Source: Microbacterium dextranolyticum | Lineage (GTDB): Bacteria > Actinomycetota > Actinomycetes > Actinomycetales > Microbacteriaceae | Direction of reading: 5' to 3' | DNA: 64,000 nt | Assembly (NCBI RefSeq): GCF_016907295.1 | Contig: NZ_JAFBBR010000001.1 | Coordinates: 2,728,001-2,792,000, forward strand | Part shown: one piece after another, positions 39,556-54,547 of the stretch | Layout of the letters: every line of letters begins with the position of its first letter | Position numbering within the stretch: position 1 is the first letter of the stretch | The notes under the pieces: model-generated | The model's database searches: none | Told to the model about the DNA's origin: nothing | What the model saw: only the letters and a program-made list of their open reading frames with translations | Made by a program: the position numbers and the translations under genes

Positions 39556-40274
39556 CGCCGGTCGTCCGTGTTCTGTCCGTAGACGTTCTGGTAGCGGTTG
39601 TAGAGCGCGTCGATCGATTCCTGCGGAATCGGAATCAGCTCGCCGGCCTGGCGTGCGAGGTGCACCGTGCGCGCGACGTCTTCGCACATCACGGCCGCCT
39701 TCACGGCATCCTTGGCGCTCGTGCCGATCGTGAACGGTCCGTGGTTCTGCATCAGGACCGCACGCGAGCGGTGCCCGCGCAGCGTCTCGACGATCCCACG
39801 ACCGATCGAGTCGTCGCCGATGATCGCGAAGGGACCCACCGGGATGGGTCCGCCGAACTCGTCCGCCATCGCCGTGATGACGCAGGGAATCTCCTCGCCC
39901 CGCGCCGCCCATGCGACCGCGTAGTCCGAGTGCGTGTGCACGACTCCGCCGACCTCGGGCATGTTCCGGTAGACGTACGCGTGTGCCGCGGTGTCGCTGG
40001 ACGGGCTGCGGTCACTTCCCGGCGTTCCCGGGACGACCGCGCCGTCCAGATCGCACAGGATCATGTTCTCGGGCGCGAGGTCGTCGTACGAGACACCCGA
40101 CGGCTTGATGACGAACAGGTCGCTGCCGGGAACCCGACCGGAGACATTGCCTCCGGTCCAGACGACCAGGCCGTAGCGGACGAGTTCGCTGTGGAGGGCT
40201 GCCACATCGGCGCGGACGGCGTCGATGCGCTGCTGCAGGTCGGCGTCCGAGACGCTCGCCGTCGCGGCGGTCAT
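39552..40274 (-). CDS. araD: L-ribulose-5-phosphate 4-epimerase
   Basis: Class II aldolase-fold enzyme (240 aa) converting L-ribulose 5-phosphate to D-xylulose 5-phosphate. The phosphate-binding WTGGNVSGR and KPSGVSYDDL segments, zinc ligands in VVHTHSDYAVAWA (two His), a third His in MQNHGPFTIG, and a C-terminal tyrosine-containing segment ALYNRYQNVYGQ are present. The gene is joined by 4-bp ATGA overlaps to a permease gene upstream and araB downstream. This confirms a single polycistronic message linking uptake and catabolism. Confidence 0.95.
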   Translation of the reverse strand: MTAATASVSDADLQQRIDAVRADVAALHSELVRYGLVVWTGGNVSGRVPGSDLFVIKPSGVSYDDLAPENMILCDLDGAVVPGTPGSDRSPSSDTAAHAYVYRNMPEVGGVVHTHSDYAVAWAARGEEIPCVITAMADEFGGPIPVGPFAIIGDDSIGRGIVETLRGHRSRAVLMQNHGPFTIGTSAKDAVKAAVMCEDVARTVHLARQAGELIPIPQESIDALYNRYQNVYGQNTDDRR

Positions 40275-41344
40275 TCTGCTCTCCGTCGCGTGAGGGCCCG
40301 CTGCAGGAGCACGAACACCAGCAGGATGCTGCCCGTGATGATCGTGAGGTACTCGGGCTTGATCGATCCGTCCTTCGTGATGATCATCCACAGCGCCGCG
40401 AGCACGAGCGATCCGACCACCGATCCGAGGACGTAGCCGACACCGCCGGTGAGGAGCGTGCCGCCGATCACGACGGCCGCGATCGCGTCGAGCTCCCAGC
40501 CGATGCCGGTGACGTTCTGCGCCTTGCCGCCGACCTGGGCGGTGTAGACGACGGCCGCGAGGCCGGCCAGCGCACCGCTGAGGATGTAGATCCACACGCG
40601 GGTGCGGGCGACGGGCAGACCCATCAGCTGAGCCGAGGACTCGGCGCCGCCGATCGCATAGACGGTTCGTCCTGCGCGGGTGCGGTGCATGAAGATCACC
40701 GCACCGATCACGACGAGAACGGCGATGAAGAATCCGGGGGTCAGGACCAGGTCGTTCGTCTTCGGGCCGTCGATCAGCTTCCAGTCCGTGGCGAACATGT
40801 GGATCGGCGCGTCGTCGGGAGCGTGCACCGGCACGGTCGAGAGCATCGAGGCCAGGCCTCGGGCGAGGAACATCATCGCCAGCGTGGCGATGAAGGGCTG
40901 CACGTTGAAGTACTGCACCAGCACGCCGGACACGAGTCCGAACAGGGCGCCGAACACGATCATCAGCACGATGGCGAGCCATCCGTTGACACCGGCATCC
41001 ATGAGCATGACGCCGGATACCGAGGTGAAGGCCACGACCGCTCCGACCGAGAGGTCGATGCCGCCCGAGATGATGACGATCGTCATGGCGACGGCGAGGA
41101 TGATCGTCGGCGCGAAGCTGACCAGCAGGCTCGACATGGTGCCGAGGTGGAACACCCGGCCGTACGCGATCTCCGCGTAGACGAGCATGCTGATGAACAG
41201 GACGACGGCGGCGAGCGTCGGGATCAGCGACTGGCTGCGCCCCCAGGCGCGAGTCCACCGGGAGCTCGTCGAGGTCAGGGCGGCGGTCGGCGCTCCGGAG
41301 AGGTCGGCTCCGCGACGTTCGCGGGTGGTGGATGTGCCGCTCAT
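40271..41344 (-). CDS. Sugar ABC transporter permease (YjfF-like)
   Basis: Membrane subunit (357 aa) of a BPD_transp_2 (RbsC/AraH/YjfF) importer. About nine hydrophobic segments are visible, including GGIDLSVGAVVAFTSVSGVM (the family signature) and GLPVARTRVWIYILSGALAG with the cytoplasmic EAA-like loop. It is the second of two permeases, giving a hetero-dimeric channel as in the E. coli YtfT-YjfF furanose transporter. The neighbours (araDBA) indicate L-arabinose, possibly in the furanose form released from arabinan. Confidence 0.9.
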   Translation of the reverse strand: MSGTSTTRERRGADLSGAPTAALTSTSSRWTRAWGRSQSLIPTLAAVVLFISMLVYAEIAYGRVFHLGTMSSLLVSFAPTIILAVAMTIVIISGGIDLSVGAVVAFTSVSGVMLMDAGVNGWLAIVLMIVFGALFGLVSGVLVQYFNVQPFIATLAMMFLARGLASMLSTVPVHAPDDAPIHMFATDWKLIDGPKTNDLVLTPGFFIAVLVVIGAVIFMHRTRAGRTVYAIGGAESSAQLMGLPVARTRVWIYILSGALAGLAAVVYTAQVGGKAQNVTGIGWELDAIAAVVIGGTLLTGGVGYVLGSVVGSLVLAALWMIITKDGSIKPEYLTIITGSILLVFVLLQRALTRRRAE

Positions 41345-42408
41345 GCGACGACCTCCTTCGGCTGCATGTTCTCAGCCAGCGGAGCCGCGGGCTTCTGAGG
41401 TCGCTTGCGCCCGAGCGCCAGCGACCGGATGCGCTCGGACTGCAGGAGCACGAGCACCACGATGACGATCGCCTTGAAGGCGGGGGTGGCCGCGGCGGAG
41501 ACTCCGAGGAAGAGCACCGTCTTGTTCAGCGTCGCGATGACCAGCGCACCGATCGTCGATCCGACAATCGAGAACTTGCCGCCGGCGAGGGATGTGCCGC
41601 CGATGACGACCGCCAGCACGGCATCCAGCTCCATCTGGTAGCCGGTGCCCGACACGTCCACCGTCATCACTTCCGACACCGTGAAGAGGCCGCCGATCGA
41701 GGCGAGACCCGCCGACAGGACGTACACGGTGATGAGGATCGGCCGGGGGCGGATGCCCGCCATGCGGCTGGCGTGCGGGTTGATGCCGATCGACTCGATC
41801 ATCAGGCCGAGCGCGGTCTTGCGCATCAGCACTGCGATGAGGATGACGATCACCAGCGCCAGCACGAAGCTCAGCGGCAGACCGAGGAACTGACCGTTCG
41901 CGAGGGTGCGGAACGGCTCGTTCTCCGAGTTCGTGTTCTGACCCCCGGTGATGACGCGGGCGATGCCGCGACCGGCCATCATCATGACGAGGGTCGTGAT
42001 GAACGGTTGCAATCCGATGACTGCCACCAGGAATCCATTGACGGCGCCGAGGACCAGTCCCAGCAGGATCGCCAGGCCGATCGCGGCGAACATCGCGCCA
42101 ATCGAGTCAGGCTGACGAAGGCCCGAGAGGGTGACCATGGCGACGGCGCCTCCGACCGCCATCACCGAGCCGACCGACAGGTCGATACCGCTCGTGGCGA
42201 TGACGAAGGTCATGCCGAGCGCGATCATCATGATCGGCGCGGAGACCCGGAGGATATCGAGCACGTTGCCCGACAGCTGTCCCGTCGCGGGGTTGACCCC
42301 GATTGCGAGGTACGAGGGGTCCTTGATGGAGTTGATGGCCAGCAGGAGCGCGATGCCGATCACGCCCCAGAACCAGGGGGTGCGCACGATGTTCCGCAGC
42401 GCGTTCAT
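41341..42408 (-). CDS. Sugar ABC transporter permease (YtfT-like)
   Basis: First permease (355 aa) of the same importer. The family signature is TSGIDLSVGSVMAVGGAV, followed by hydrophobic segments and the loop IGINPHASRMAGIRPR that contacts the ATPase. Starts and stops overlap by 4 bp with the ATPase and the second permease. Located in the cytoplasmic membrane; it would form the translocation path with the YjfF-like subunit. Confidence 0.9.
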   Translation of the reverse strand: MNALRNIVRTPWFWGVIGIALLLAINSIKDPSYLAIGVNPATGQLSGNVLDILRVSAPIMMIALGMTFVIATSGIDLSVGSVMAVGGAVAMVTLSGLRQPDSIGAMFAAIGLAILLGLVLGAVNGFLVAVIGLQPFITTLVMMMAGRGIARVITGGQNTNSENEPFRTLANGQFLGLPLSFVLALVIVILIAVLMRKTALGLMIESIGINPHASRMAGIRPRPILITVYVLSAGLASIGGLFTVSEVMTVDVSGTGYQMELDAVLAVVIGGTSLAGGKFSIVGSTIGALVIATLNKTVLFLGVSAAATPAFKAIVIVVLVLLQSERIRSLALGRKRPQKPAAPLAENMQPKEVVA

Positions 42409-43988
42409 TCAAGTTCTCCTTCGACCTCGTCGACGAGCGCGTCCGTGCGCGCCTCCGCCTTCTCGCCCGAGTCGGCGGCGATGATCGAGACGATCCGCTC
42501 CGCCGTGACATCGGGTCCGTTGACGACCTCGCCGACCTTCTGGTGGTCCTTCATGATGAGGATGCGCTCGGACAGGCGCACGACCTCTTCGAGCTCGGAC
42601 GAGATGAACACGACGCTCATCCCGCCTTCGGCGAGCTCGGCAACCGTCTCCTGGATGTCCGCCTTGGCGCCCACGTCGATTCCGCGGGTCGGCTCGTCCA
42701 GCAGCAGCAGCTCCGGGTCGGTGGCCAGCCAGCGACCGAGGAGCACCTTCTGCTGGTTACCGCCGGAGAGCAGCCGGATCGGCCGATCGGGGTCGTTGGG
42801 ACGCACGCTGAAGCGCTCCATGTAGGTCTTGACCATGCGGTCGACGTCGCGCGCCGGCACGCGGCGCATCCACCCGCGCTGGGCCTGCACGGCCAGCATG
42901 ATGTTCTCGCGGATGCTGAGGTCGCCGACGATGCCGTCTTCGCGGCGGTTCTCGGTCGAATACGCGATGTGGTTCGCCAGACCCGAGACCGGCGACGAAA
43001 TAGTGGTCTTCTTGCCCTTGAGGCGCACGGTGCCCGCATCGGGCTTGTCGGCGCCGAAGATCAGGCGGGCGAGCTCCGTGCGTCCCGAGCCGAGCAGACC
43101 GGCGAAGCCGACCACCTCGCCCTTGTGGATCTCGATGTCGGTGGGAGTGAGCGAGCCCTTGCGGCCCAGCTCGTCGGCCGCGTAGACCGGTGTCTGGGTG
43201 CGGTCGCGCTCGTCGACCTGGCGGTTCGAGCCGAGAGCCCGCAGCGCATTGATGTCCTTGCCGATCATCTTCGAGATGAGCTCGGTGCGGTCGAGGTCGC
43301 GCTTGAGGTATTCGCCGACGAAGCCGCCGTTGCGCAGCACCGTGATGCGGTCGCTGATCGCGTACACCTGGTCGAGGAAGTGCGAGACGAACAGGATCGC
43401 AACGCCCTGGTCGCGCAGGCGCCGGATGACGCCGAAGAGCATCTCGACTTCGGCGGCGTCGAGGCTGGAGGTGGGCTCGTCGAGGATGAGCACCTTCGAC
43501 TTCGTCACCATGGCGCGGCTGATCGCGACGAGCTGCTGCAGGGCGATCGAGATCGACGAGAGCGGCGCCCGCGTGTCGAGGTCGCCGAGGCCCATGTCCG
43601 CGAGCACCTCGTGTGCCCGCGCATGGGTCTTGCGCCAGTTGATGCCGACGAGACCGCGGGTCTCGTGCCCCAGCATGACGTTCTCACCGATGGTGAGGTT
43701 GGTGCACAGGTTCACTTCCTGATACACCGTGGAGATTCCGGCGGCCTGAGCGGATGCGGTTCCGGAGAACCGGCGCTCGGTGCCGAAGACCAGGATCGAC
43801 CCGGAGTCGATCTGGTAGACGCCGGTGAGAGCTTTGATGAGCGTCGACTTACCGGCGCCGTTCTCACCCATGAGAGTGTGGACCTCGCCGGGCAGCAGGC
43901 GGAAATTCACTTCGTCGAGCGCTTTGACGCCCGGGAAAGTGATCGACGCACCGCGCACTTCGACGATCGGGAGAGGTTCGTTGGCCAC
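42405..43988 (-). CDS. Sugar ABC transporter ATP-binding protein (tandem ABC, YtfR/RbsA type)
   Basis: ATPase of 527 aa with two fused nucleotide-binding domains. Domain 1 has Walker A GENGAGKSTLIKALTG, Walker B ILDEPTSSLDAAEV and the H-loop region. Domain 2 has the degenerate Walker A GLLGSGRTELARLIFG, signature LLSGGNQQKVLLGRW and Walker B LLLDEPTRGIDVGAK, the usual asymmetry of CUT2 sugar importers. Start is GTG 43988. A hairpin between the binding-protein gene and this gene probably lowers its expression relative to the binding protein. Confidence 0.95.
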   Translation of the reverse strand: MANEPLPIVEVRGASITFPGVKALDEVNFRLLPGEVHTLMGENGAGKSTLIKALTGVYQIDSGSILVFGTERRFSGTASAQAAGISTVYQEVNLCTNLTIGENVMLGHETRGLVGINWRKTHARAHEVLADMGLGDLDTRAPLSSISIALQQLVAISRAMVTKSKVLILDEPTSSLDAAEVEMLFGVIRRLRDQGVAILFVSHFLDQVYAISDRITVLRNGGFVGEYLKRDLDRTELISKMIGKDINALRALGSNRQVDERDRTQTPVYAADELGRKGSLTPTDIEIHKGEVVGFAGLLGSGRTELARLIFGADKPDAGTVRLKGKKTTISSPVSGLANHIAYSTENRREDGIVGDLSIRENIMLAVQAQRGWMRRVPARDVDRMVKTYMERFSVRPNDPDRPIRLLSGGNQQKVLLGRWLATDPELLLLDEPTRGIDVGAKADIQETVAELAEGGMSVVFISSELEEVVRLSERILIMKDHQKVGEVVNGPDVTAERIVSIIAADSGEKAEARTDALVDEVEGELE

Positions 43989-44101: not shown

Positions 44102-45109
44102 TCAGAAGCCGAGTCCGCTGTCGAGGGCCTTCTTGGCAGCCTCGGGCGAGTCGAACGTGGCGCTCTTGACGATGATGGTGGAGTCGACCTTCTCGCCGGC
44201 GAGGGCCTTGTTGACGGCATCCACCGCGTCGGTTCCGAAGAACGGGTTGTACTGGGCGACGAAGCTCAGGTCACCCTTGGACAGCGCCTCGAGAGCACCC
44301 TTGGTGCCGTCGATGGTCGCGATCTTGACGTCCGTGCCAGGCTTGAGGCCGGCGGCGGAGACGGCCTGCGCCGCACCGATGCCCATCTCGTCGTTCTGCG
44401 CGAAGATGAACTGGATGCCGTTGTTGTTGGCCTTCAGCGCGGTCTCGACGACCGACTTGCCCTCGTCCGTCTTCCAGTTGGCGGTCTGCGCGCCGACCTT
44501 GTTCCAGCCCGCCTTGCCGGCGATGGCCGAGTCGAAGCCCTGGTTGCGCTCGTTGACGACCGACAGACCGGGGACACCCTCGAGCACGAAGTAGTTCGCG
44601 CCCTGCGGGAAGGTCGTGGCTGCCCACTGGCCGACCGAGGTGGCCACCTGGACGTTGTCGGGCGCGATGCGGGTGACGTAGAGGTCGCTGTCCGCGTCGA
44701 CGCCGCGGTCGAGCAGGATCACGGGGATGTTGGCTTCCTTGGCCTTCTTCAGCTGGTCCTGCCAGCCCGAGGCCTCCGTGGCCGTGAGCAGGATGACGTC
44801 GACCTCGTCGTTGACGAAGGTCGAGAACGCGTCCAGCTGCGACTTCTGGTCGCTCGGGCTCGCGGCCGGAGCGTACTTGAGGTCGAAGCCGGCCTCCTTG
44901 GTGAACGCGTCCTTGATCGCCTGCTCGTTGGCGTTGCGCCAGCCGCCCTCGGGGCCGACCGCGACGAAGCCGACGGTGACCGTCTTGCCGTCCTTGCCGG
45001 CGTCGCCGGACGATGCCGGCTCGCCCGAACCCGACGAGCATGCCGTGAGCGTCAGGGCGCCGACCGCTGCGAGACCGACCAGTCCCAGGAACCTCTTGTT
45101 GTGTCCCAT
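44102..45109 (-). CDS. Sugar-binding lipoprotein of ABC transporter (YtfQ-like)
   Basis: Solute-binding protein of 335 aa, anchored outside the membrane. The signal peptide ends in lipobox LTAC (Cys at about residue 24), followed by a Ser/Gly linker. The mature part resembles YtfQ: VGFVAVGPEGGWRNANEQAI, VDVILLTATEASGWQDQL, IPVILLDRGVDADSDLYV and the hinge segment IFAQNDEMGIGAAQA. E. coli YtfQ binds furanose sugars such as galactofuranose and arabinofuranose, fitting arabinan breakdown. GGAGGAG precedes the ATG. It is the first gene of the eight-gene uptake/catabolism operon and lies behind a LacI-type operator. Confidence 0.93.
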   Translation of the reverse strand: MGHNKRFLGLVGLAAVGALTLTACSSGSGEPASSGDAGKDGKTVTVGFVAVGPEGGWRNANEQAIKDAFTKEAGFDLKYAPAASPSDQKSQLDAFSTFVNDEVDVILLTATEASGWQDQLKKAKEANIPVILLDRGVDADSDLYVTRIAPDNVQVATSVGQWAATTFPQGANYFVLEGVPGLSVVNERNQGFDSAIAGKAGWNKVGAQTANWKTDEGKSVVETALKANNNGIQFIFAQNDEMGIGAAQAVSAAGLKPGTDVKIATIDGTKGALEALSKGDLSFVAQYNPFFGTDAVDAVNKALAGEKVDSTIIVKSATFDSPEAAKKALDSGLGF

Positions 45110-45199: not shown

Positions 45200-45228
45200 A
45201 TTGTGCGCGCTAACACTTCAGATAGCAA
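45200..45228 (-). promoter_or_regulatory. Promoter and LacI operator of the arabinose operon
   Basis: On the minus strand TTGCTA (45223-45228) and CACAAT (45200-45205) are 17 nt apart. The operator TGTTAGCGCGCACA (45202-45215) fills the 3' half of the spacer and overlaps the -10. The same motif occurs at 48512 and 54490. The LacI gene just upstream is the obvious binding protein. Confidence 0.75.
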
Positions 45229-45245: not shown

Positions 45246-45261
45246 GTTACCATCTTGTTAC
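45246..45261 (-). promoter_or_regulatory. GTAAC direct repeat upstream of arabinose promoter
   Basis: Two copies of GTAAC (minus strand) are separated by 6 nt, just upstream of the promoter. This is the GTNAC-N6-GTNAC pattern resembling MtrA sites. An activating or modulating role is speculative. Confidence 0.3.
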
Positions 45262-45301
45262 CGCGCACATTTGTGACGGCGCGAGGCGTTCGCGCCATGG
45301 G

Positions 45302-46321
45302 TCAGCGGCGCGGCGGCGCCGTCGAGGCGCGCACGACCAGGACGGGCTCGATCACGTCGTGATGGACGTCACCGTCTCCCCCGATCGCCGCGAGAATCTG
45401 CCTCAGAGCGAGCTCGCCGAGCGCCGAGAAATCCTGCTGCACCGTCGTCAGCGGGGGCAGGAAGTGGCGCGAATCGGGCAGATCGTCGACGCCGATGACA
45501 CTGATGTCCTGCGGAATGCGCAAGCCGCGCTCGGCGAGCCCGTGCATGAGGCCGAGCGCCATCTGGTCGTTCGCGGCGAAGACGGCGGTCGCATCGCCGA
45601 AATCATGCGTCCGCCCGTACTCGTAGCCGAAGTCCGAGGTCCAGTCCCCCACCACGGGAGCGATGACGTCGAGACCTGCCAGCGCGAGGGCATCCGCCCA
45701 CCCCTGCTGACGCTCACGCGCGTCGTACCAGTCCTGGGGTCCCGCGAGATGAAGGATCCTGCGGTGGCCGATGCCGATCAGATAGGTGACCGCCTCGACA
45801 GCGCCGGCGCGCTGATCCACGGCGATCGTGTGCCACACGGGGTCGGGCTCGGCCTTGATCACGATGGTGGGCAGTCCTCGGTCGTGCTCGCGGAGGACCC
45901 GCAGCGAGGATGCCCGGGGCGCAATGACGCAGAGCGCCTCCACACCTTCGGTGGCGAGTTCCATCAGGCCGTCGTCCATCTGGGACTGGGCGCCGTCGGA
46001 GACCGAGAACGCGCTCACCCCGTAACCCTGATGACGGGCCGCGCTCTCGAGGGCGCGCAGAGTGCTGTTCGGTCCGTACTCCACAGGGCCGTCCACGAGC
46101 ACACCGATGCGCATGGCGCGGCGGGTCGCGAGCGCCCGCGCGATCGAGCTGCGCGTGTAGTTCATGTCCTCGATCGCGCGGAGCACGCGCTCACGCGTCG
46201 AGTCTCGGATGTTGGGGTGACCGTTGAGCACACGGGAGACCGTCATGTGCGACACGCCCGCCTGCTTCGCGACGTCGTAAATGCTGGGCCTCTGCCAGCC
46301 TCGCGTCGCCTGATCGGTCAT
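45302..46321 (-). CDS. LacI family transcriptional regulator of arabinose/arabinan genes
   Basis: Repressor of 339 aa. The N-terminal helix-turn-helix and hinge read SIYDVAKQAGVSHMTVSRVL and ARALATRR. The effector-binding domain is of the sugar-binding-protein type (IGVLVDGPVEYGPNST, HHxxx-like GIGHRRILHLAGP and VIGVDDLPDSRHFLPPLTTV). The ATG overlaps the stop of the LPVTG gene by 4 bp, so it is made from the surface-cassette mRNA and is thereby autoregulated through the operator at 48512. Its probable inducer is arabinose or an arabino-oligosaccharide. It is not related to the GntR-type AraR of Bacillus. Confidence 0.92.
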   Translation of the reverse strand: MTDQATRGWQRPSIYDVAKQAGVSHMTVSRVLNGHPNIRDSTRERVLRAIEDMNYTRSSIARALATRRAMRIGVLVDGPVEYGPNSTLRALESAARHQGYGVSAFSVSDGAQSQMDDGLMELATEGVEALCVIAPRASSLRVLREHDRGLPTIVIKAEPDPVWHTIAVDQRAGAVEAVTYLIGIGHRRILHLAGPQDWYDARERQQGWADALALAGLDVIAPVVGDWTSDFGYEYGRTHDFGDATAVFAANDQMALGLMHGLAERGLRIPQDISVIGVDDLPDSRHFLPPLTTVQQDFSALGELALRQILAAIGGDGDVHHDVIEPVLVVRASTAPPRR

Positions 46322-46545
46322 CCAACCCCGTTTCGTCGAGACCCATGGTAGCCCCGGACGACAGCGACACCCGCAATGACGAGCGCTGCACCCGCCGCCA
46401 ACAGCATCCACGCCGGCTCGCCTCCGGTCACCGGAAGCGCCCCCGAGCAGCCGGTACCGCAGGGCACCGGCAGAATGTCGACGAAGACGCGGACGCCCTC
46501 GCTGTTGTACTCGGTGGTGTCCGCGGCAGCGGTGAGCCAGGTCAT
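46318..46545 (-). CDS. Small LPXTG-anchored surface protein (CscD-like)
   Basis: Protein of 75 aa with a sorting signal: LPVTGGEP, a hydrophobic segment AWMLLAAGAALVIAGVAVV and a positively charged tail RGYHGSRRNG. The remainder is a short exposed part with two Cys (PVPCGTGCSG). No classical signal peptide is visible before the exposed part, which is unusual for a sortase substrate. Start and stop overlap the DUF916 gene and LacI gene by 4 bp each. In Firmicutes csc clusters a small LPxTG protein (CscD) accompanies WxL and DUF916 proteins. No sortase gene lies in the window. Confidence 0.72.
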   Translation of the reverse strand: MTWLTAAADTTEYNSEGVRVFVDILPVPCGTGCSGALPVTGGEPAWMLLAAGAALVIAGVAVVRGYHGSRRNGVG

Positions 46546-47603
46546 GATGATGTCTCCTGTTCGGCAGTGCGGCGCCCCTCTTCACGGGCGCGATCGAGCA
46601 TGGCGGTCAATCGGCGTCGCGAGCGGCGACGCGATCCGACCAGTGCCCAGACGACGAGCGCGAGTCCGACGAGGACAGCGATCTGAGGCCAGGGCACCGC
46701 GATGACCGACGATGTCCAGCTCGCCGGGGCGACCTCGGGGCGCTGCCCGTCGAAGGTCACCGCCGTCGGCTGGAGCGTCACCGCGACCGGGACCGAGAAC
46801 AACGGCCAGGCCCCGGGAACGGAGACGCTGAGAGTGCGGTGGTCGCCGGGGAGGAGTTCGGGCGCCGACTCCCCCTCGGCGGGGAAGGATATGGATTGCC
46901 CGCCCGCCTCGACCGTGCCGGCGACGAGGATCCGGGCGTTCCCGGTGTTCTGGACGTCGAACGACACCGTGACCGACCCTGGGCGGAAGGGGTTCCACGA
47001 CATCTCGTAGGACGCCGAGCCGTTCGTCAGCGCCGCGGCGGGAGCCAGCTGGCCGTTCACCCGCGTGAGCACCCGGAAGCCGATGCGGCTTTCGACGCCG
47101 ACGCTCGCTCCCCCGTCTGCGGTCTGGGTGGACGTGATAGAGGCGGTGATGCCGGCGGCATGGTCTCCCGGTTCGGCGCGTTCGGGAACGGAGATCGAGT
47201 AGGGGACGACGACGGTGGCACCGGCGGCGACCGTCACCGACGGTGGCAGCGAGATCCAGGTGCCCGAATCGACGGACTTCTTGTCGGACGAGAGGGTATC
47301 GAAGCGGCCAGACCGCGTGAAATAGCCGTCCGCGGCGGCGAGCGCGAAGCTCACCTCGTGATCGCTGGAGTTGCGGATGGCGAGGTGGTCATCCGCACTC
47401 GCTCCAGGATCGAGCTGATACTCCGCGAACCTCCGCCCGTCGGGCCCGTTCGCGTCCGACGGCGTGACCGACCAGCGCACCGGCGCATCGGCCGCGTCGT
47501 CCGCCAGCACGGCGGGTGCCGGCAGCACCAGGAGCCCGAGCGCGGCCGCGGCCAGCGCCGCCGTCAGACGTGCGGCGACGGCGCGAAGGGGGAGGTGGGG
47601 CAT
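46542..47603 (-). CDS. DUF916 (WxL-interacting) membrane-anchored protein (CscA-like)
   Basis: Exported protein of 353 aa. A signal peptide covers residues 1-35. A DUF916/peptidoglycan-binding beta domain follows (about 45-150, with EYQLDPGASADDHLAIRNSS, FxxxxDGYF-like ALAAADGYFTRSG and ISLPPSVTVAAGATVVVPYS). A second beta domain (about 165-285, with SFDVQNTGNARILVAG) comes next, then a transmembrane helix (IAVLVGLALVVWALVG) and a basic cytoplasmic tail. Firmicutes homologues bind WxL proteins to the wall. AGGAG lies 5 nt before the ATG. A hairpin separates it from the WxL-like gene, and ATGA overlaps join it to the LPVTG gene. Confidence 0.85.
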   Translation of the reverse strand: MPHLPLRAVAARLTAALAAAALGLLVLPAPAVLADDAADAPVRWSVTPSDANGPDGRRFAEYQLDPGASADDHLAIRNSSDHEVSFALAAADGYFTRSGRFDTLSSDKKSVDSGTWISLPPSVTVAAGATVVVPYSISVPERAEPGDHAAGITASITSTQTADGGASVGVESRIGFRVLTRVNGQLAPAAALTNGSASYEMSWNPFRPGSVTVSFDVQNTGNARILVAGTVEAGGQSISFPAEGESAPELLPGDHRTLSVSVPGAWPLFSVPVAVTLQPTAVTFDGQRPEVAPASWTSSVIAVPWPQIAVLVGLALVVWALVGSRRRSRRRLTAMLDRAREEGRRTAEQETSS

Positions 47604-47622
47604 CGGAACTCCTGAGAGGGAA

Positions 47623-47657
47623 CGGGCCGGAGCCGCCGCGAGGACGGCTCCGGCCCG
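47623..47657 (-). terminator. Intercistronic hairpin after the WxL-like gene
   Basis: A 13-bp perfect stem (47623-47635 with 47645-47657) with a 9-nt loop and no T-run lies between the WxL-like gene and the DUF916 gene. It probably protects or partly terminates the upstream message, so that the secreted protein is made in excess of its membrane-bound partner. Confidence 0.6.
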
Positions 47658-47677
47658 AGGGGCATAGACCGACGGGC

Positions 47678-48319
47678 TTACTGCTGGGCGTCTTCCCAGA
47701 GCGTAAGCGTGATCTTGCCCGAGTACGCGCCCGGCGCGACCGTGGCCGGCGTCTTCAGGAAGAGGTCGGCGTCCGCCTTCCACTCGCCGGTCGGCCGCAC
47801 CTGCTGCGAGTCGAGCGACAGCACGAACAGCTCGTCGCCGACGAGGCCGACGTTGTTCGGCGTGCTCGTCGATCCGCTCGTCGGGTCATCCAGCGTGGTC
47901 ACGACCTCGTCGCCCTCGCTGACAGCACCGTCCGAGTTGTCGGAGAGGAGCTTCGGCGTCCAGCCCAGGTTCCCCGCAGCGATCTTCTGCGTGACGCCCG
48001 GAGCGCTGAACTCGGACGACTGACCGGTCACGTACCAGAAGACGCCGTCCGGCACCTGCTGGCGGTCGTCGGTCACCGTCACGACGGGCAGCTTGCCGTC
48101 GAACTGACGGAGCGTCGTGTCGGCCGACGCGACCTCGGTCAGCGTCGTCGAGGTCGCGGCCACCGACATCGTCAGCGCACCCTTCGCCTCGATGTTGACG
48201 TTGACGTTGACGTCGTCGTTCTGCACCTCGGCGGCCATCGCCGCGCCGGCGCAGCCGACCAGCATCGCTCCGCCGACCACGCCCGCCGCAACGCGGGTCC
48301 AGGTTGCCCTGTTCTTCAT
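47678..48319 (-). CDS. WxL-like secreted surface protein
   Basis: Exported protein of 213 aa with a signal peptide (GVVGGAMLVGCAGAAMAAEV, cut near AMA). The mature protein is beta-rich: NVNVNIEAKGALTMSVAATS, FWYVTGQSSEFSA, LGWTPKLLSD and the C-terminal SGKITLTLWEDAQQ. It resembles the WxL cell-wall-binding domain in layout, with W-Y-V at the first motif position and LTLW at the end, but neither is a strict W-x-L, so the assignment leans on the DUF916 and LPVTG neighbours. GGAG lies 6 nt before ATG 48319. An untranslated leader of about 170 nt separates it from an operator-controlled promoter. Confidence 0.65.
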   Translation of the reverse strand: MKNRATWTRVAAGVVGGAMLVGCAGAAMAAEVQNDDVNVNVNIEAKGALTMSVAATSTTLTEVASADTTLRQFDGKLPVVTVTDDRQQVPDGVFWYVTGQSSEFSAPGVTQKIAAGNLGWTPKLLSDNSDGAVSEGDEVVTTLDDPTSGSTSTPNNVGLVGDELFVLSLDSQQVRPTGEWKADADLFLKTPATVAPGAYSGKITLTLWEDAQQ

Positions 48320-48497: not shown

Positions 48498-48526
48498 ATG
48501 TTATCGTGAACTGTTAGCGCAAACAA
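48498..48526 (-). promoter_or_regulatory. Promoter with tandem LacI operators for the surface cassette
   Basis: On the minus strand TTGTTT (48521-48526) and TAACAT (48498-48503) are 17 nt apart. TGTTAGCGCAAACA (plus-strand reading, 48512-48525) and a weaker copy TGTTATCGTGAACT (48499-48512) lie side by side in and around the spacer. No terminator is visible after the upstream GH43 gene, so some read-through from it is also likely. Confidence 0.7.
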
Positions 48527-48544: not shown

Positions 48545-51487
48545 CTATCGTCCACAGGTGTGGGCTTCGTAGGGAGCCGTGACGGTCGTTTTGACCGCCT
48601 TGCCCCCGACCTCTCCGGAGGCCTCCACACTCGCGACTCCGGCCGGCACGGACACCTGCCGCGTCGACAGGGCGACCGAGCTCGCGGCACCCGCCGCGAC
48701 CGAGACGGTGCGGTTTCCGACCGGAGTCGACACCGCCGCCGTGACCGGAACATCGGACGCGTTCTTCACCGTGACGGCGAGCACCGACTTGCCGGCCACG
48801 CACCGCGACGTCGTGGTCGCCGTGACGGTCAGTGCCGGCGGCGTGCTCTCGGCGATCACGGCGAGCTCGGCGAGGGATCGCTCCAGCGGTCGCGCCACCG
48901 CCTCGACCTGGTTGAGCGTCGAGAACGGGTGCTGCGCCGCGGCATCCCGAGCGGCGATCGCCTTGCCGTAGGTGTGCTGGAACGACGCCCAGGCGGCCGC
49001 GGGATAGTCGGACTCCTTAAGTCCCGCGGCGCGAGAGATCGCGGCATCCAGACGAGCGCCTGTGACGGCGACGCCGTCGGCGGTGAGCACCTTGCTGAGC
49101 GAGTAGTGGTCGAAGTCGACCCCGCCGCCGGTCTGCTGCGTCGCGTACGAGAAGAGCCCCATACGGTAGCCCATGAAGTGCGACAGACTCCAGTCCATCG
49201 AGAGCGGACCGGTCCGCTGGCCGAGCTGCTGCCACGTCTGACCGTCGAGGCTGTAGTAGTAGCGGATCCACATCTGGCCGCCGTTGGTCACCGAGTCGAC
49301 GTCGGCCTTGAGGTGGACGACACGGCTGTCGCCGAGCGGGACCGTCGACCCGGAGACGAACGCCTCGGTCGCCGCGCGATCGAGCGTCGCCTGGAAGGGC
49401 TGGCCTCGGTAGACGATGCCGAGCGTGTACTGACCGTCGACCTTCTTCACCCCCGCGTAGGCGAAGCTGCGCGTGTAGGTCGCGAGACCCGCGACATCGC
49501 CGTCCTTCATGCGCGACACGTCGATCGTGGTCTCGACGGACTGCTTCGGGCCGAAGGTGCGCTGCGACAGGGTGTTGCGGGCCTCCTCGAACCAGGTCAG
49601 GTCGTCCTTGCCCGAGAGCTTGGCGTACTTGTACTGCCCCGTGACGACCTTGCCGTTGGTCAGGCTCAGCCATCCGGGACGCTCGGTCAACGACCAGTAC
49701 CGGTTGTCGGGTGCGTGGTTCCACTCCCACGCCGGGTCGAGGTCGGAGCCGTTGTAGGCGATCTCGTCGGCCGACGGCGCCTCGGTGGTCAGCGGACGCC
49801 CCCGCAGCGACAGGTCGTCGACCAGGACATCCATGACGTGCGCGTCGGGCGAGGCCTGCACGTTCGTCGCGCTCGTCCACGGGGTCTCGAGGAAGATGCG
49901 CATCGAATCCAGAGGCTGCGAGGACGGCACGGTGAAGCTGCCCTTGATCTGCGCCCACTGGCCGTTGGTCGCGGTCACGTTGGCGAGGTTCGTGTACGTG
50001 CCGTTGCCGTACCGCGCGGTCAGGATGAACTGCTTCGTGGCGGGAGAAGTCGCCTTGTCGTACTTCACCCAGGCGGAGATGTCGTACGTGACATCGTGCT
50101 GGACCTTGCCGGACACGTCCTGCGCGATGCCCGACCCGGTGGTCTTGCGGTCGGAGATCAGGACGGCGGACGATCCGTTGTGCCCGTTCGGCGAGGCGGT
50201 CAGCGTCGCGTTGTCGTTGACGATCCAGCCCGTCGTGCCCGCGTCGAGGTTCGCGTTCGCGAACAGCTCGACGCCCAGCAGCGACTGATCGATCGCCGGC
50301 TGCGCCGGGATCTGCCACTTCTCATCCGACCATGCGCGATGCGGTGCGTCGTTGTCGAAGTCGTCCGACGCGACGACCGACCGCGAGCGCTCGAGCTCGG
50401 TCTGCGCCGGGGTGAGGGAGATGACCTTGTCGAAGGTGCCGTTGTAGGGCACGTTGCCGTTGTTGCCGAAGGTCGGCCAGCCGTCCTTCCAGGTCGCCGG
50501 GATCAGCGCGGGGATGCGGCCGACCGGGAATGTGTCGCGGAAGAAGAATCCGTACCAGTCGCTTTCCTGACCGGCGCGCGGGACCTCGAACAGACCGCCC
50601 TGCGCGAAGCCGTTGGAGTTCAACGCGCTGCGCGCCTCATACGTGTTGGCGCCACCGACCGACTGGTAGCGCCCGAGCAGGTCCTTGGAGCGGAAGACGG
50701 CTTCCTGGCGGCCCTGGCCGCTCGGCCACGTGATGATGAAGACGTAGTAGTAGTCGCCGATCTTGTAGACCTGCGCGCCCTCGAACAGTCCGCCGACGAA
50801 GGACTGGTCGGCGTAGTCGCTGGCCCGGAAGATGTTCGGGTACTCCGCGACGATGCTCGAGAGGTCTTCGCTGAGCTTGACCGCGCTCGTCCCGCCCGAG
50901 CCGTAGAAGATGTAGGGCGTGCCGCCGTTCGCGTCGTCGAAGAAGAGCGAGGGGTCGTGGAAGGCGCGACCGAACGCGTGCGACTCCCACACGCCGTTCT
51001 CGATGTCCTTGGTCGTATAGAGGTAGGCGCCACCGAGGTTGTTCGTGTTGAACAGCACGTAGAACGTGCCGTCGTGGTACCGCAGGGACGACGCCCACTG
51101 GCCCTGACCGTACGACTCCTTGCCGTTTCGCAGCGACGAGGCATCCGAGATGCTGATCCGGTTGAACACGTAGTTGACGGTCTCCCAGTTGACACCGTCG
51201 TAGGACTTCATGATGGGGGCACCGGGGCTGAGGTGCATCGTCGTGGACACCATGTAGTAGATGTCTCGGCCCTCGGCATTCTCTGCTGCGGGGACCATCG
51301 CGACGCTGACGTCGGGGACATCGGCGTTGATGACGGGGACGGTGTAGGTGCCATCACCCTTGTCCGTGGAGGTGTAGCCGGAATCGGGAGCGGTGCTGTC
51401 CGCCGCCGACGCGGCTGTCGTGGTGAGCATGCTCCCCGCGAGCGCGGCTACCACCGCGATCGCCGCGAGCGGGCGTTTCTTCGACAT
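48545..51487 (-). CDS. Secreted multi-domain GH43 glycosidase (arabinofuranosidase/xylosidase type)
   Basis: Extracellular enzyme of 980 aa. In order: signal peptide (1-29); five-bladed GH43 catalytic domain (about 35-345, with YYMVSTTMHLSPGAPIMKS, AFHDPSLFFDD and GLFEGAQVYKIGDYYYVF, the last carrying a catalytic-type Glu); CBM4/9-like module (about 378-540); GH43 C-terminal concanavalin-like domain (about 555-770, with YYYSLDGQTWQQLGQRTGPL); FIVAR-like helical hairpin (about 780-860); and a 95-residue C-terminal domain beginning after TTSRCVAG and ending AHTCGR. Likely substrates are arabinan or arabinoxylan side chains, given the arabinose operon next door. It lies 116 bp downstream of the other GH43 gene. 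Confidence 0.88.
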   Translation of the reverse strand: MSKKRPLAAIAVVAALAGSMLTTTAASAADSTAPDSGYTSTDKGDGTYTVPVINADVPDVSVAMVPAAENAEGRDIYYMVSTTMHLSPGAPIMKSYDGVNWETVNYVFNRISISDASSLRNGKESYGQGQWASSLRYHDGTFYVLFNTNNLGGAYLYTTKDIENGVWESHAFGRAFHDPSLFFDDANGGTPYIFYGSGGTSAVKLSEDLSSIVAEYPNIFRASDYADQSFVGGLFEGAQVYKIGDYYYVFIITWPSGQGRQEAVFRSKDLLGRYQSVGGANTYEARSALNSNGFAQGGLFEVPRAGQESDWYGFFFRDTFPVGRIPALIPATWKDGWPTFGNNGNVPYNGTFDKVISLTPAQTELERSRSVVASDDFDNDAPHRAWSDEKWQIPAQPAIDQSLLGVELFANANLDAGTTGWIVNDNATLTASPNGHNGSSAVLISDRKTTGSGIAQDVSGKVQHDVTYDISAWVKYDKATSPATKQFILTARYGNGTYTNLANVTATNGQWAQIKGSFTVPSSQPLDSMRIFLETPWTSATNVQASPDAHVMDVLVDDLSLRGRPLTTEAPSADEIAYNGSDLDPAWEWNHAPDNRYWSLTERPGWLSLTNGKVVTGQYKYAKLSGKDDLTWFEEARNTLSQRTFGPKQSVETTIDVSRMKDGDVAGLATYTRSFAYAGVKKVDGQYTLGIVYRGQPFQATLDRAATEAFVSGSTVPLGDSRVVHLKADVDSVTNGGQMWIRYYYSLDGQTWQQLGQRTGPLSMDWSLSHFMGYRMGLFSYATQQTGGGVDFDHYSLSKVLTADGVAVTGARLDAAISRAAGLKESDYPAAAWASFQHTYGKAIAARDAAAQHPFSTLNQVEAVARPLERSLAELAVIAESTPPALTVTATTTSRCVAGKSVLAVTVKNASDVPVTAAVSTPVGNRTVSVAAGAASSVALSTRQVSVPAGVASVEASGEVGGKAVKTTVTAPYEAHTCGR

Positions 51488-51565
51488 GTCGTCGCTTTCT
51501 TGTGGGGTCGTTGTGGGGTCGTTTGTCGGGTGTCGTTCGAGGCCGTGAGAGAGGAAGGCGCGAGG

Positions 51566-51599
51566 ACCCGGGGCGACCGCGCGAGCGGCCGCCCCGGGT
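51566..51599 (-). terminator. Intercistronic hairpin between the GH43 genes
   Basis: ACCCGGGGCG (51566-51575) pairs with CGCCCCGGGT (51590-51599), and the loop can add GACCGC/GCGGCC-type pairing. There is no T-run. It starts within 5 bp of the upstream stop codon and probably acts as an mRNA 3'-end stabiliser or weak terminator. Confidence 0.55.
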
Positions 51600-51603
51600 T
51601 CGC

Positions 51604-54027
51604 TCAGCCGCAGGACCGAGCGGTGTACGGAGCGCTCACGCTCACGCGCGAGCCGTCGGCCGCCGTGGCGACCACCTCGGCCTGTCCGGCATCGAACGAT
51701 GCCGCGCGCGTCGACACGGCCGCCGTGGCGGTCTTGCCCGCGCCGACCGACAGCGTCCGCGTTCCCGCCGGCGTGGTGATGGCCGCGGTGACCGGCGTCG
51801 CCGGGTCGCCCGTGACGGAGACGGCCAGCACGACCTTGCCCGCGACGCAACGCGTCGTGGCCGTCGCCGTGACCGCGAGCTGCGGCTCGGGCTGGGCGGC
51901 GGCGAACGAGAACGTGTCGAGCTCGAACAGGTCGCCCGTTCCCCCGGTGTAGGTGAAGTAGACGTCGTGCGTTCCGGTGGCGCCGGTCAGCGTCGCCGTG
52001 CTCTCGGACCATTCACCGATCGGACCGTCGACGGAGATCGTGCCGAGGACGGTGCCCGTGGCGCTGCCCGAACGGACCTCGATCTTGCCCCCGGCCTGCA
52101 GCGGCTTGGCCTTGACCGTCACCGAGGCCGCGCCCTTCTCACCGAACGCCACCGACGACAGACCGGTCCAGTCACCGGCGTCGATGTCCTTGACGACGAG
52201 GTTGGGCGCGGTGGAGCCGAACTGCGTCGACCCACCCGCGATCTTCTCGGTCGCGATGCCCTTGCTCCAGCCGAAGGTTTCGGCTTCGAACACGCGGAAC
52301 GGGTCGAAGTCGTGCACCTGCGCCACGCCGGCGTAGTCGCCGACGACCTGCTTGATCGTGCCGTCCGCGTTGAACGCCATCTCCTGGATGTGCGGGCTGC
52401 GGTAACCCTGCGTCGTGTTGCCGTTGATGCGCTTGTTCAGGGTCGGGGCGTGGTACGTGAAGTAGTACTTGCCGTTGAACTCGAACACCGACTGGTGGTT
52501 GTTTCCGCCCGTGCCGGCACCGAAGAACTGGCCCTGGTTCGGGAAGAGCACGCCCGCGTACGTCTCCTTCGGGAAGTTGGTCGGGCTGTCCGACATCAGG
52601 TAGCCGATCTCGCCGCCGCCCGGGTAGTTGGCCTGGGCCTTGGCCTGGTTGCCGCCGAAGTCGTTGCCGCCGAAGTGGGACGAGTAGGACAGGTAGTACT
52701 TGCCCTCGCGCTCGAACACCTGAGCGGCCTCGAACGACACCGGGGTGTCGACGACCTGGGCCGAACCCTTGGTGCTCACCATGTCGTCACCGAGCTCGAT
52801 GACGCGGATGTTCTTCGGGTTGTTGAACCGCTCGGACGCCGGCATCGACGTCGACGCCGGACCGCCGCCGAAGTAGAGGTACGCCTTGCCGTCCTTGTCC
52901 ACGAGAGGCGCGGGGTCGAACTTCCAGGCCACCGACTCGGCGCCGGGCGTCGAACCGTCGATCAGCGTCGAGCTGCGCTCACTGGTCCACGGCCCGAGCG
53001 GGCTGGCACCGGTGATGACGTTGGACGATCCGCCGCCGTTCGCGTAGTACAGGAAGTACTTGTCCTGACCGTTCACCTTCTTCTTGGCGAAGCCGGGCGC
53101 CCACGAGTTGTTCGTGAACGGGGCGACACCCGCCGAGCCGGCCACCTGGATCTCACCGTGGTCGGTCCAGTTGACCAGGTCCTCGGAGGAGATCAGCGTG
53201 ATCTGGTTGATGCTGCCGTAGTTGATCTGCGGCGAGACCCCGGTCACCGGGTCGGGCGCGTAGCCCTGGGTGTCGTTGGTCATGAACATGTAGACGCGCC
53301 CGTTCTCGGCATACCCGAACCCGTCCGCACCGAACTTGTGTCCGATCAGCGGGTTGTGCTCGCCGGGAAGCTTGCCGACGACCTCGATCGTCTTGGACGG
53401 AGCAGCGGGCGGGGCGGCGCCCACCAGCGACACGTCGTCGAGCACGAAGTCCATCAGGTGCGTGTCGGGAGCGCTTGCCGGGTCGGACGTCCACGGCGTC
53501 TCGAAGAAGATGCGCGCGGTCGCCGTGCTCTGCGCCGACGGGATCGTGAAGTTGCCCTGGATGTGGCTCCACTGACCGCGGGTCGCCTGCACCGAGGCCA
53601 GGTTCGTGTAGGTGCCGCCGCCGTAGTGCATGGTGGCGAAGAACTGCTTGGTGGCCGGGCTCGCCGCGTTGTCGTATTTGACCCACGCGGACACGGTGTA
53701 GGTCTTCCCTGACTGCACCTTGCCGGACAGGTCCTGCATGGGACCTGTGCCGGTCGTCTTGCGACCGGTCGTCTGCACAGCCGACGCCCCTGCGTGGGGA
53801 TCGGAGACGACGGCGAGCTGGCCGCCGTCGGTGGCGTTGCCGTTGTTGACGAACCACGAGCTGATGCCGCTCTCGAATCCGCCGTTCACGATCAGTTCGG
53901 TGTCCGCGGCCGTCGCGGGGGGTGTCACGGCGGACCACGCGAGAGCGACGCCGGCAATCGCCGCCGCGAACGTCATGGTCCTGCGCCTTCTCGTGCCGTC
54001 GGGACGGCTCTTGGTCGATGGGCTCAT
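51604..54027 (-). CDS. Secreted GH43 arabinofuranohydrolase with CBM4/9 and CBM6 modules
   Basis: Extracellular enzyme of 807 aa. Signal peptide (1-40, ending PPATAAD); N-terminal CBM4/9-like module (about 42-195, starting ELIVNGGFESGISSWFV); GH43 domain (about 210-560, with NPLIGHKFGADGFGYAENG, NSWAPGFAKKK and VSFEAAQVFEREGKYYLSYS holding the acid-type Glu); CBM6-like module (about 565-700, VFEAETFGWSKGI to DLFELDTFSF); and the 95-residue C-terminal domain shared with the other GH43 enzyme. The catalytic domain resembles XynD-type arabinoxylan arabinofuranohydrolases. AGAGGAAG precedes ATG 54027. It is first of the hydrolase unit behind an operator-controlled promoter. Confidence 0.88.
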   Translation of the reverse strand: MSPSTKSRPDGTRRRRTMTFAAAIAGVALAWSAVTPPATAADTELIVNGGFESGISSWFVNNGNATDGGQLAVVSDPHAGASAVQTTGRKTTGTGPMQDLSGKVQSGKTYTVSAWVKYDNAASPATKQFFATMHYGGGTYTNLASVQATRGQWSHIQGNFTIPSAQSTATARIFFETPWTSDPASAPDTHLMDFVLDDVSLVGAAPPAAPSKTIEVVGKLPGEHNPLIGHKFGADGFGYAENGRVYMFMTNDTQGYAPDPVTGVSPQINYGSINQITLISSEDLVNWTDHGEIQVAGSAGVAPFTNNSWAPGFAKKKVNGQDKYFLYYANGGGSSNVITGASPLGPWTSERSSTLIDGSTPGAESVAWKFDPAPLVDKDGKAYLYFGGGPASTSMPASERFNNPKNIRVIELGDDMVSTKGSAQVVDTPVSFEAAQVFEREGKYYLSYSSHFGGNDFGGNQAKAQANYPGGGEIGYLMSDSPTNFPKETYAGVLFPNQGQFFGAGTGGNNHQSVFEFNGKYYFTYHAPTLNKRINGNTTQGYRSPHIQEMAFNADGTIKQVVGDYAGVAQVHDFDPFRVFEAETFGWSKGIATEKIAGGSTQFGSTAPNLVVKDIDAGDWTGLSSVAFGEKGAASVTVKAKPLQAGGKIEVRSGSATGTVLGTISVDGPIGEWSESTATLTGATGTHDVYFTYTGGTGDLFELDTFSFAAAQPEPQLAVTATATTRCVAGKVVLAVSVTGDPATPVTAAITTPAGTRTLSVGAGKTATAAVSTRAASFDAGQAEVVATAADGSRVSVSAPYTARSCG

Positions 54028-54121
54028 TGCTTCCTCTTCCTGTCTTTCCTGGGATGGGATGGGGTGGGGGACCCGGTGCGGACTCGGGGAGAGGGGGAAC
54101 CGCACCGGGGCCGCGCCGTGG

Positions 54122-54313
54122 TCATCGGCAGGCGGCGGCGTCGTACGCGACCGGGGCCTGAGTCGTGGCGCCTCCTTCCGTCGTGCTCGTCGTGATCTCG
54201 ACGTCGTCAGCGGGGATGCCCGGCGCGCCCGCGGCATCGCGCGGGCGAGACCGATATCGGTCTCGCCTCGCGGATGGCCCGGCGTCGCAGCCGGGCGTCG
54301 CGATCGGCCTCAT
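54122..54313 (-). pseudogene. Truncated remnant of a third secreted protein sharing the GH43 C-terminal domain
   Basis: An open frame of 63 codons has AAGGAG 9 nt before its ATG, but only its last 30 residues look meaningful: VEITTSTTEGGATTQAPVAY then DAAACR. This matches in pattern the ends of the two neighbouring GH43 enzymes (Thr/Val-rich strand, aromatic residue, Cys near the end). The first half is Arg/Pro-rich and unlike a signal peptide. I read it as the fused start and end of a gene that lost its middle by deletion. It lies between the operator-controlled promoter and the intact GH43 gene. It may still be translated. Confidence 0.5.
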
Positions 54314-54489: not shown

Positions 54490-54547
54490 AGTTAGCGCTC
54501 ACATTGCGCCCTGCGGCAAAGATACCAACAACACAACTCCGACACAA
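54490..54547 (-). promoter_or_regulatory. Promoter and LacI operator of the GH43 genes
   Basis: On the minus strand TTGTGT (54542-54547) and TATCTT (54519-54524) are 17 nt apart. The operator AGTTAGCGCTCACA (54490-54503, plus reading) lies just downstream of the expected start site. It is the third copy of the TGTTAGCGCNNACA motif. The leader is about 480 nt to the GH43 start and includes the truncated gene and a hairpin CCGGTGCGG/CCGCACCGG near 54078-54110. Confidence 0.75.

Follow-up and report, generated by a model that had tools for sequence, protein, structure and literature searches.

The window analysed here, a 64,000-nt stretch of the single-contig 3.18-Mb genome of Microbacterium dextranolyticum, contains a cassette of three minus-strand genes that encode a small secreted WxL-like protein, a DUF916/WxLIP-type membrane protein and a mini-protein with an LPVTG sorting motif. 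On balance, we lean slightly toward the view that this cassette serves as the anchor of a surface system under pentose control, by which tagged enzymes active on arabinan and xylan are kept at the cell. Judging by its sequences, the cassette is related to csc clusters but divergent, and it appears to work like them; it fails the strict WxL tests. The new elements are a likeness between the mini-protein and the N-terminal strand of the WxL-like protein, a C-terminal tag domain of the associated enzymes, and a set of operator-like sites. Natural enzyme-WxL fusions, the common tag and the common operator lend indirect support to a hydrolase-holding role. We infer that a chain may lead from the mini-protein strand through the WxL-like protein to the tag.

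Cassette proteins and strand likeness

The initial annotation had proposed a csc-like set of three small, overlapping genes coupled to a LacI gene. The set is borne out by a DUF916 match to Firmicute WxLIPs, an LPVTG motif above anchor cut-offs and a remote WxL profile match. All three genes are present; those of the DUF916 protein and the mini-protein overlap (ATGA), as do those of the mini-protein and LacI, in agreement with the proposed coupling, while a gap of 74 nt separates the WxL-like and DUF916 genes.

Profile evidence relates the 213-aa protein remotely to WxL domains, of which it is not a canonical example. PF13731 (WxL), which the annotation had suggested as a check, gives no match to it in a Pfam profile search; a GH53 fusion in another genome comes to 20.0 bits, with a cut-off of 25. 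In a profile-profile comparison, an alignment of 58 relatives matched a Firmicute WxL alignment with a probability score of 46 and an E-value of 2e-4; in it, VTDDR..W-Y-V falls on the D-R..W-x-L region and YSxTLTLTLWED on YxTTLTWxL. Two W-x-L motifs are not present: the first reads W-Y-V and the second L-T-L, so that the first W is retained and the second is replaced by L, the divergence that had been noted before. The family is widespread, with 219 proteins at E<=1e-3 (query counted), and the earlier suggestion of a distinct actinobacterial version is supported. In sequence comparison, no solved structure came below E 0.05 as a relative of the family, and 9i25_A (WxL) is not on the fold-match list of the WxL-like model, the matches on that list being at noise level. 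Shortly behind the signal peptide lies a beta-strand, which follows the pattern D-x-V-x-V-x-V-x-I in 80 aligned sequences.

The second protein is, on profile and model evidence, a membrane protein of the DUF916/WxLIP type. The Pfam check proposed for it was borderline: in one search PF06030 scored 26.9 bits, just under the cut-off of 27.3, and in another 28.9. Comparison of profiles with Firmicute WxLIPs gave a probability score of 95 and an E-value of 2.8e-8, and the closest solved chains to its model are 9i25_C and 9i1y_A. It has the signal peptide and C-terminal membrane helix of csc-type DUF916 proteins as well as the PGBD profile and fold of WxLIPs.

The mini-protein is a very small LPXTG protein of the kind found in csc clusters. 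Its LPVTG motif exceeds two NCBIfam anchor-domain cut-offs (NF058582, 27.4 against 27; TIGR01167, 17.3 against 15.9), and the -3 offset to the DUF916 gene is common to 23 of 24 mini-proteins. Apart from the membrane/sorting end, this family shares one stretch and little else, and that stretch resembles the N-strand of the WxL-like proteins. When genes were scored with a matrix derived from the WxL strand alone, ranks 1 to 11 were all taken by mini-proteins, against 958 other genes. In a sliding-window test on untrimmed 60-residue starts, the likeness forms a sharp peak at one place among 65 WxL windows.

Several relatives depart from the standard arrangement. In a Galactobacter metagenome-assembled genome, one 508-aa open reading frame (ORF; L056:733-2259) joins DUF916, the strand motif and an LPETG sorting signal. 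In Arthrobacter and Paenarthrobacter, LPATG mini-proteins with the strand motif lie upstream of the WxL-like gene (L031:9207-9680, L052:9260-9646), and DUF916 was not found in the fetched stretch. The proposition that every mini-protein is an LPXTG protein was rejected, since in 5 of 24 (L011, L014, L015, L016, L041) the sorting motif is missing from the last 70 residues; these five, directly behind DUF916, keep the strand and have long Gly/Pro-rich repeats. Cognate specificity, in which each mini-protein would most resemble its own WxL partner, was likewise rejected in the 24 actinobacterial pairs (p 0.64). The p of 0.03 in 7 Firmicute clusters came from hand-cut windows; it is weak and is not used as support.

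Firmicute clusters were sampled by tblastn with a WxL probe, which gave 61 plasmid records with WxL genes, 12 of which were fetched. In seven annotated CscD-type small LPXTG proteins, the stretch behind the signal peptide resembles the corresponding stretch of a neighbouring WxL to varying degree (for example, NYDSNGVTAF / NYDSNGVITF in L094 and RSVETEGTIGF / RQVTTNGNIEF in L089). Among 326 ORFs scored with a WxL-only matrix, three of the seven were the best non-WxL matches. The strand rule is clear in some Firmicute clusters and not in others. On an Enterococcus mundtii plasmid (L088:2703-3935), a CscD-like N-terminus runs in frame into a WxL gene, either as a fusion or as a decayed junction.

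Enzyme tag and operator-like sites

The main argument that the cassette may hold enzymes is that WxL-like domains have either an enzyme in cis, as fusions, or a tag in trans. The upstream neighbour of the WxL-like gene could be called in 76 loci, and in 65 of them, read by eye, its protein ends in a C-terminal domain of about 95 aa of the type RCVAGK...CG. A regular-expression count gave 67, including L031 (false) and L048 (frameshifted). Within the 65, the cysteines are missing in L023, L035 and L062, the neighbour is on the opposite strand in L017, L025 and L060, and it is more than 3 kb away in L043 and L064. The two cysteines are invariant across 41 aligned tag sequences. GH43 was found in 37 of 67 scanned neighbours (15/37 plus 22/30); the others include GH127, GH30, GH95 and rhamnosidase. 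No Pfam or NCBIfam family describes the tag, every listed family matching 1 of 41 members at E 0.0015 or worse, and none of the 41 sequences matched a dockerin in Pfam at E 0.01. Designed Ig domains resemble it weakly, at E 5e-5 at best. Eight tagged enzymes are present in the source genome, namely six GH43 (one under the Pfam cut-off, and two being those in the window), one GH10 and one alpha-galactosidase.

The genome searches scored a limited number of candidates, and the counts of tags and WxL-like proteins are lower bounds that hold among the matches listed. The tag occurs in at least 23 of 149 genomes and at least 117 places, with up to 19 per genome. A WxL-like match is present in 18 of these 23 genomes (p 5.7e-10 over the 149, kinship ignored). 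Conversely, of the 14 genomes that have a WxL-like match with E<1e-30, 13 carry tags (p 8.9e-12, kinship again ignored). A tag lies within 2 kb of 17 of 24 small-type WxL-like places and within 10 kb of 22, against 1 of 48 within 2 kb for the large or divergent type, a split made by E-value after the fact. The large proteins often have an enzyme in cis. In a scan of 20 further WxL-like proteins, an enzyme domain (esterase, phosphatase, GDPD, GH53 or peptidase) turned up in 13, HtaA in 3 and Ig repeats alone in 1; the other 3 have nothing.

Only one further WxL-like place in the source genome is over threshold, a 675-aa fusion to purple acid phosphatase (L006:3595-6846; G000:C1:2564000-2576000). 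Its C-terminal WxL-like domain is followed by its own DUF916 gene, and a mini-protein was not found downstream. In one genome of the family, S15 and M64 peptidases with C-terminal WxL-like domains lie near a DUF916 gene (L108:3359-9510). The possibility that enzymes bear the donor strand themselves was tried in a full-length scan, which yielded scattered internal matches alone.

The annotation had also given the cassette its own operator-controlled promoter. An operator-like palindrome with one mismatch does lie upstream; a sigma-70 consensus was looked for ahead of the cassette and not found. The pattern is a LacI-type palindrome picked after that site had been seen. At up to 2 mismatches, it occurs at 8 sites genome-wide, against 4 for the reversed control. 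Of 8 examined units, 7 have an operator, namely those of the cassette, the importer and five sets of tagged enzymes. It lies no more than 400 nt ahead of the first possible start or, for one unit, 14 nt within a start that was over-called; two divergent units have one site in common. Random placement reached at most 3 units in 200,000 trials. These units hold 7 of the 8 tagged enzymes, provided that GH43b-GH43a and GH43-GH10 are co-transcribed; the alpha-galactosidase unit has no operator. The other two sites are at a phosphoketolase gene (L132 near 2358) and between genes for a glpX-type fructose-bisphosphatase (FBPase) and a fructose-bisphosphate (FBP) aldolase (L133 near 2695), which suggests one pentose regulon.

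Proposed mechanism and alternatives

In the mechanism we propose, the WxL-like domain would be an Ig-type acceptor with an exchangeable N-terminal strand. DUF916, resembling a pilus chaperone, would complement this domain with a hairpin strand during export, a role already predicted for the WxLIP of Firmicutes. The mini-protein, hardly more than a strand likeness on a sorting signal or membrane helix, would then replace the N-strand and tie the WxL-like protein to the envelope. So anchored, the WxL-like protein, alone or with DUF916, may hold the tag-bearing enzymes, as a counterpart of the enzyme-WxL fusions. Holding tagged enzymes at the surface would keep enzymes, oligosaccharide release and importer together in one place.

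There is a sizeable, if minority, chance that the strand likeness is generic, both stretches being edge strands near the mature N-terminus and the mini-protein an anchored peptide with another role (spacer or sortase decoy). Alternating V/I strands are common, the actinobacterial pairs show no cognate specificity, and DUF916 N-termini also score weakly. The window's own mini-protein is the weakest of the 24 at 3.4 bits, no better than those: nine non-mini genes outscore it (up to 10.1; five are DUF916 genes) and an unrelated LAATG ORF reaches 3.3 bits. In the scan of full-length genes, one glycoside hydrolase scored 18.3, within the range of the mini-proteins, and the four other Firmicute CscD proteins were unremarkable (ranks 33, 53, 76 and 238, an upstream start having been taken for the last). 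A signal peptide is not visible by eye in the window's mini-protein, as in 11 of 24; a separate mini-protein is absent from the searched stretch in 34 of 58 DUF916 loci (fused in L056); and five mini-proteins have no sorting motif, although four of them have a hydrophobic end. The DUF916 model fits Ig domains of glycosidases and sialidases equally as well as chaperones. All of these points weigh against an anchoring role by strand exchange, and the unremarkable score of the window's mini-protein and the five without sorting motif have slightly lowered our confidence in the anchoring reading and in its wider extension to csc clusters, and raised it in a generic likeness. Against the latter stand the top 11 ranks, the sharp single peak, the scarcity of other common features among the mini-proteins, the strand retained in the five without sorting motif, the natural DUF916-strand-LPETG ORF and the similar stretches in several Firmicute CscD proteins.

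It is rather unlikely that the WxL-like and DUF916 proteins form an adhesin or substrate-binding complex of their own, linked to the arabinan enzymes by co-regulation alone, and that the tag is an Ig-like module of the usual stabilising or sugar-binding kind which pairs with no cassette protein. Such an arrangement would agree with the 99 of 117 tag places that are more than 2 kb from any WxL-like gene and the 5 of 23 tag genomes that have no WxL-like match, both of which count against anchoring, as does the fact that the co-occurrence statistics ignore kinship and cover a limited number of candidates. Many tagged enzymes already have carbohydrate-binding modules, and the likeness of the tag to designed Ig domains is weak. 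On the other side are the tagged neighbours in most loci, the tags in nearly all genomes with a strong WxL-like match, their near absence beside large or divergent WxL-like genes and the direct fusions of enzymes to WxL. We consider it improbable that the WxL-like protein polymerises into a fibre by N-strand exchange with the mini-protein as base, as a chaperone-usher-like pilus with no usher. The position of the strand close behind the signal peptide, pilin-like fold matches, the chaperone-like fold of WxLIP and the several WxL-like genes of some genomes are consistent with a fibre; yet the fold matches of the WxL-like model do not rise above the noise of the method, and in the monomer as predicted, the strand may occupy the gap of its own domain. 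An adhesin logic, with a large WxL protein without N-strand as pilus tip, is not claimed: the phosphatase fusion has the strand-like GQDIQVDVP. Firmicute large WxLs differ in the N-strand region.

Locus layout and known systems

The cassette was expected between two GH43 enzymes and an importer, and this order holds: both GH43 genes are upstream, and LacI and the importer are downstream. The order after the cassette is LacI, sugar-binding protein, ATPase and two permeases, behind which come a protein with a class II aldolase domain, a kinase of the FGGY type and AraA (Table 1). The closest named relatives of the locus are in Microbacterium and other Actinobacteria, mainly Microbacteriaceae. 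LacI, sugar-binding protein and ATPase follow closely behind the cassette in 16 of 79 compared loci (15 Microbacterium and 1 other Microbacteriaceae).

Table 1. Positions in the window of the cassette, its neighbours and the operator-like sites (AF2, AlphaFold2; pLDDT, its per-residue confidence)
Feature	Position	Strand	Basis or remark
L-arabinose isomerase AraA	36401..37918	-	profile match
Two importer permeases	40271..42408 (41341-42408, 40271-41344)	-	BPD_transp_2
Importer ATPase	42405..43988	-	profile match
Importer sugar-binding protein	44102..45109	-	Peripla_BP_4
Operator-like site upstream of importer	45202..45215	.	pattern scan
Weaker operator-like site upstream of importer, 3 mismatches	45256..45269	.	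pattern scan
LacI-family regulator	45302..46321	-	ATGA-coupled to mini-protein gene; profile match
LPXTG mini-protein of 75 aa, gene coupled to that of DUF916 by ATGA; by eye, signal peptide not visible	46318..46545	-	translation; anchor profiles
LPVTG sorting motif, then membrane helix and basic tail	46423..46437	-	sequence; anchor profiles
Mini-protein strand motif EGVRVFVDILP, resembling WxL-like N-strand	46468..46500	-	family-level matrix result
DUF916/WxLIP-type protein, 353 aa: signal peptide, two Ig-like domains, C-terminal membrane helix	46542..47603	-	AF2 pLDDT 90.6
Small secreted WxL-like protein, 213 aa	47678..48319	-	219-member family; AF2 pLDDT 81.8; Firmicute WxL profile match
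WxL-like N-terminal strand, residues 36-45 DVNVNVNIEA	48185..48214	-	AF2 strand 37-45
Operator-like palindrome upstream of cassette, 1 mismatch	48512..48525	.	pattern scan
GH43a: GH43 + CBM_4_9 + GH43_C2 enzyme	48545..52012	-	Pfam; ORF start over-called, overlaps GH43b
GH43a C-terminal two-cysteine tag domain	48548..48841	-	alignment; no Pfam/NCBIfam family
GH43b: CBM_4_9 + GH43 + CBM_6 enzyme	51604..54237	-	Pfam; ORF start probably over-called
GH43b C-terminal two-cysteine tag domain	51607..51900	-	alignment; genome search
Operator-like site upstream of GH43b	54490..54503	.	pattern scan

Donor-strand complementation is the logic of PapD-like chaperones. It may be tentatively extended to a Gram-positive donor-strand system in Actinobacteria and in csc clusters generally, in which DUF916/WxLIP would be a membrane-tethered PapD-like chaperone, WxL proteins the strand-accepting subunits and CscD the anchored terminal donor strand. 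The actinobacterial complex would then dock dispersed glycosidases through the tag, as a cellulosome-like arabinan/xylan machine. Siezen 2006 (PMC1534035) describes CscD proteins as 90-140 aa long with uninformative alignments, and proposes that they anchor the others "through as yet unknown interactions"; the strand likeness would be a concrete answer to the mechanism left open there. Hassan and Williamson (PMC9772566) draw attention to the N-terminal strand, which lies above the WxL platform, and suggest its rearrangement. In the prediction of Hassan et al. 2023 (PMC10599100), WxL has a gap into which a hairpin strand of WxLIP fits, running parallel to one of the WxL strands. The likeness agrees with both. 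PDB entry 9i25 (2026) is a complex between a WxLIP and a long WxL. In our own reading, the predicted insertion would follow the PapD-like logic, the published hairpin would be equivalent to that of the window's DUF916 protein, and CscD would offer a second strand to WxL. The terms "WxL domain" and "donor strand" were not found together in the literature searched, preprints and most subscription papers being outside its scope. The tag, in turn, would define a new actinobacterial way of retaining enzymes for plant cell walls at the surface, which could be of use in enzyme display.

Like the csc clusters (cscA-D; PMC1534035), the cassette combines a DUF916 membrane protein, a small WxL-like protein and a tiny LPXTG protein in one cluster and is tied to plant sugars, and the strand likeness extends to some Firmicute CscD proteins. 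It differs in its high-GC actinobacterial host, its motifs W-Y-V and L-T-L and the common tag of the adjoining enzymes. It has no large WxL protein, the one elsewhere being the phosphatase fusion, whereas such a protein is usual in csc clusters according to PMC1534035 and always present according to PMC9772566. All csc proteins carry a signal peptide in the account of PMC1534035, whereas none is visible by eye in the mini-protein. With WxLIP (DUF916-DUF3324; PMC10599100; PDB 9i1y and 9i25), the DUF916 protein shares two Ig-like domains, the C-terminal helix, a profile match and the nearest solved structures; however, the first domain alone aligns by profile, identity is 16%, and the root-mean-square deviation over both domains is 8.6-8.9 A. 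With PapD-like chaperones (FimC, Caf1M, CsuC) it appears to share the fold of domain 1, a long hairpin at its end and a second Ig domain, and strand donation is predicted for Firmicute WxLIP in PMC10599100. In contrast to these chaperones, it is membrane-anchored and Gram-positive and has no usher, and the likeness is in fold alone, which other Ig domains share. Finally, the proposed arrangement resembles the cohesin-dockerin systems of cellulosomes, in which a small scaffold is combined with dispersed enzymes bearing a common terminal module, except that the tag here is a two-cysteine, probably Ig-like domain without a Pfam dockerin match.

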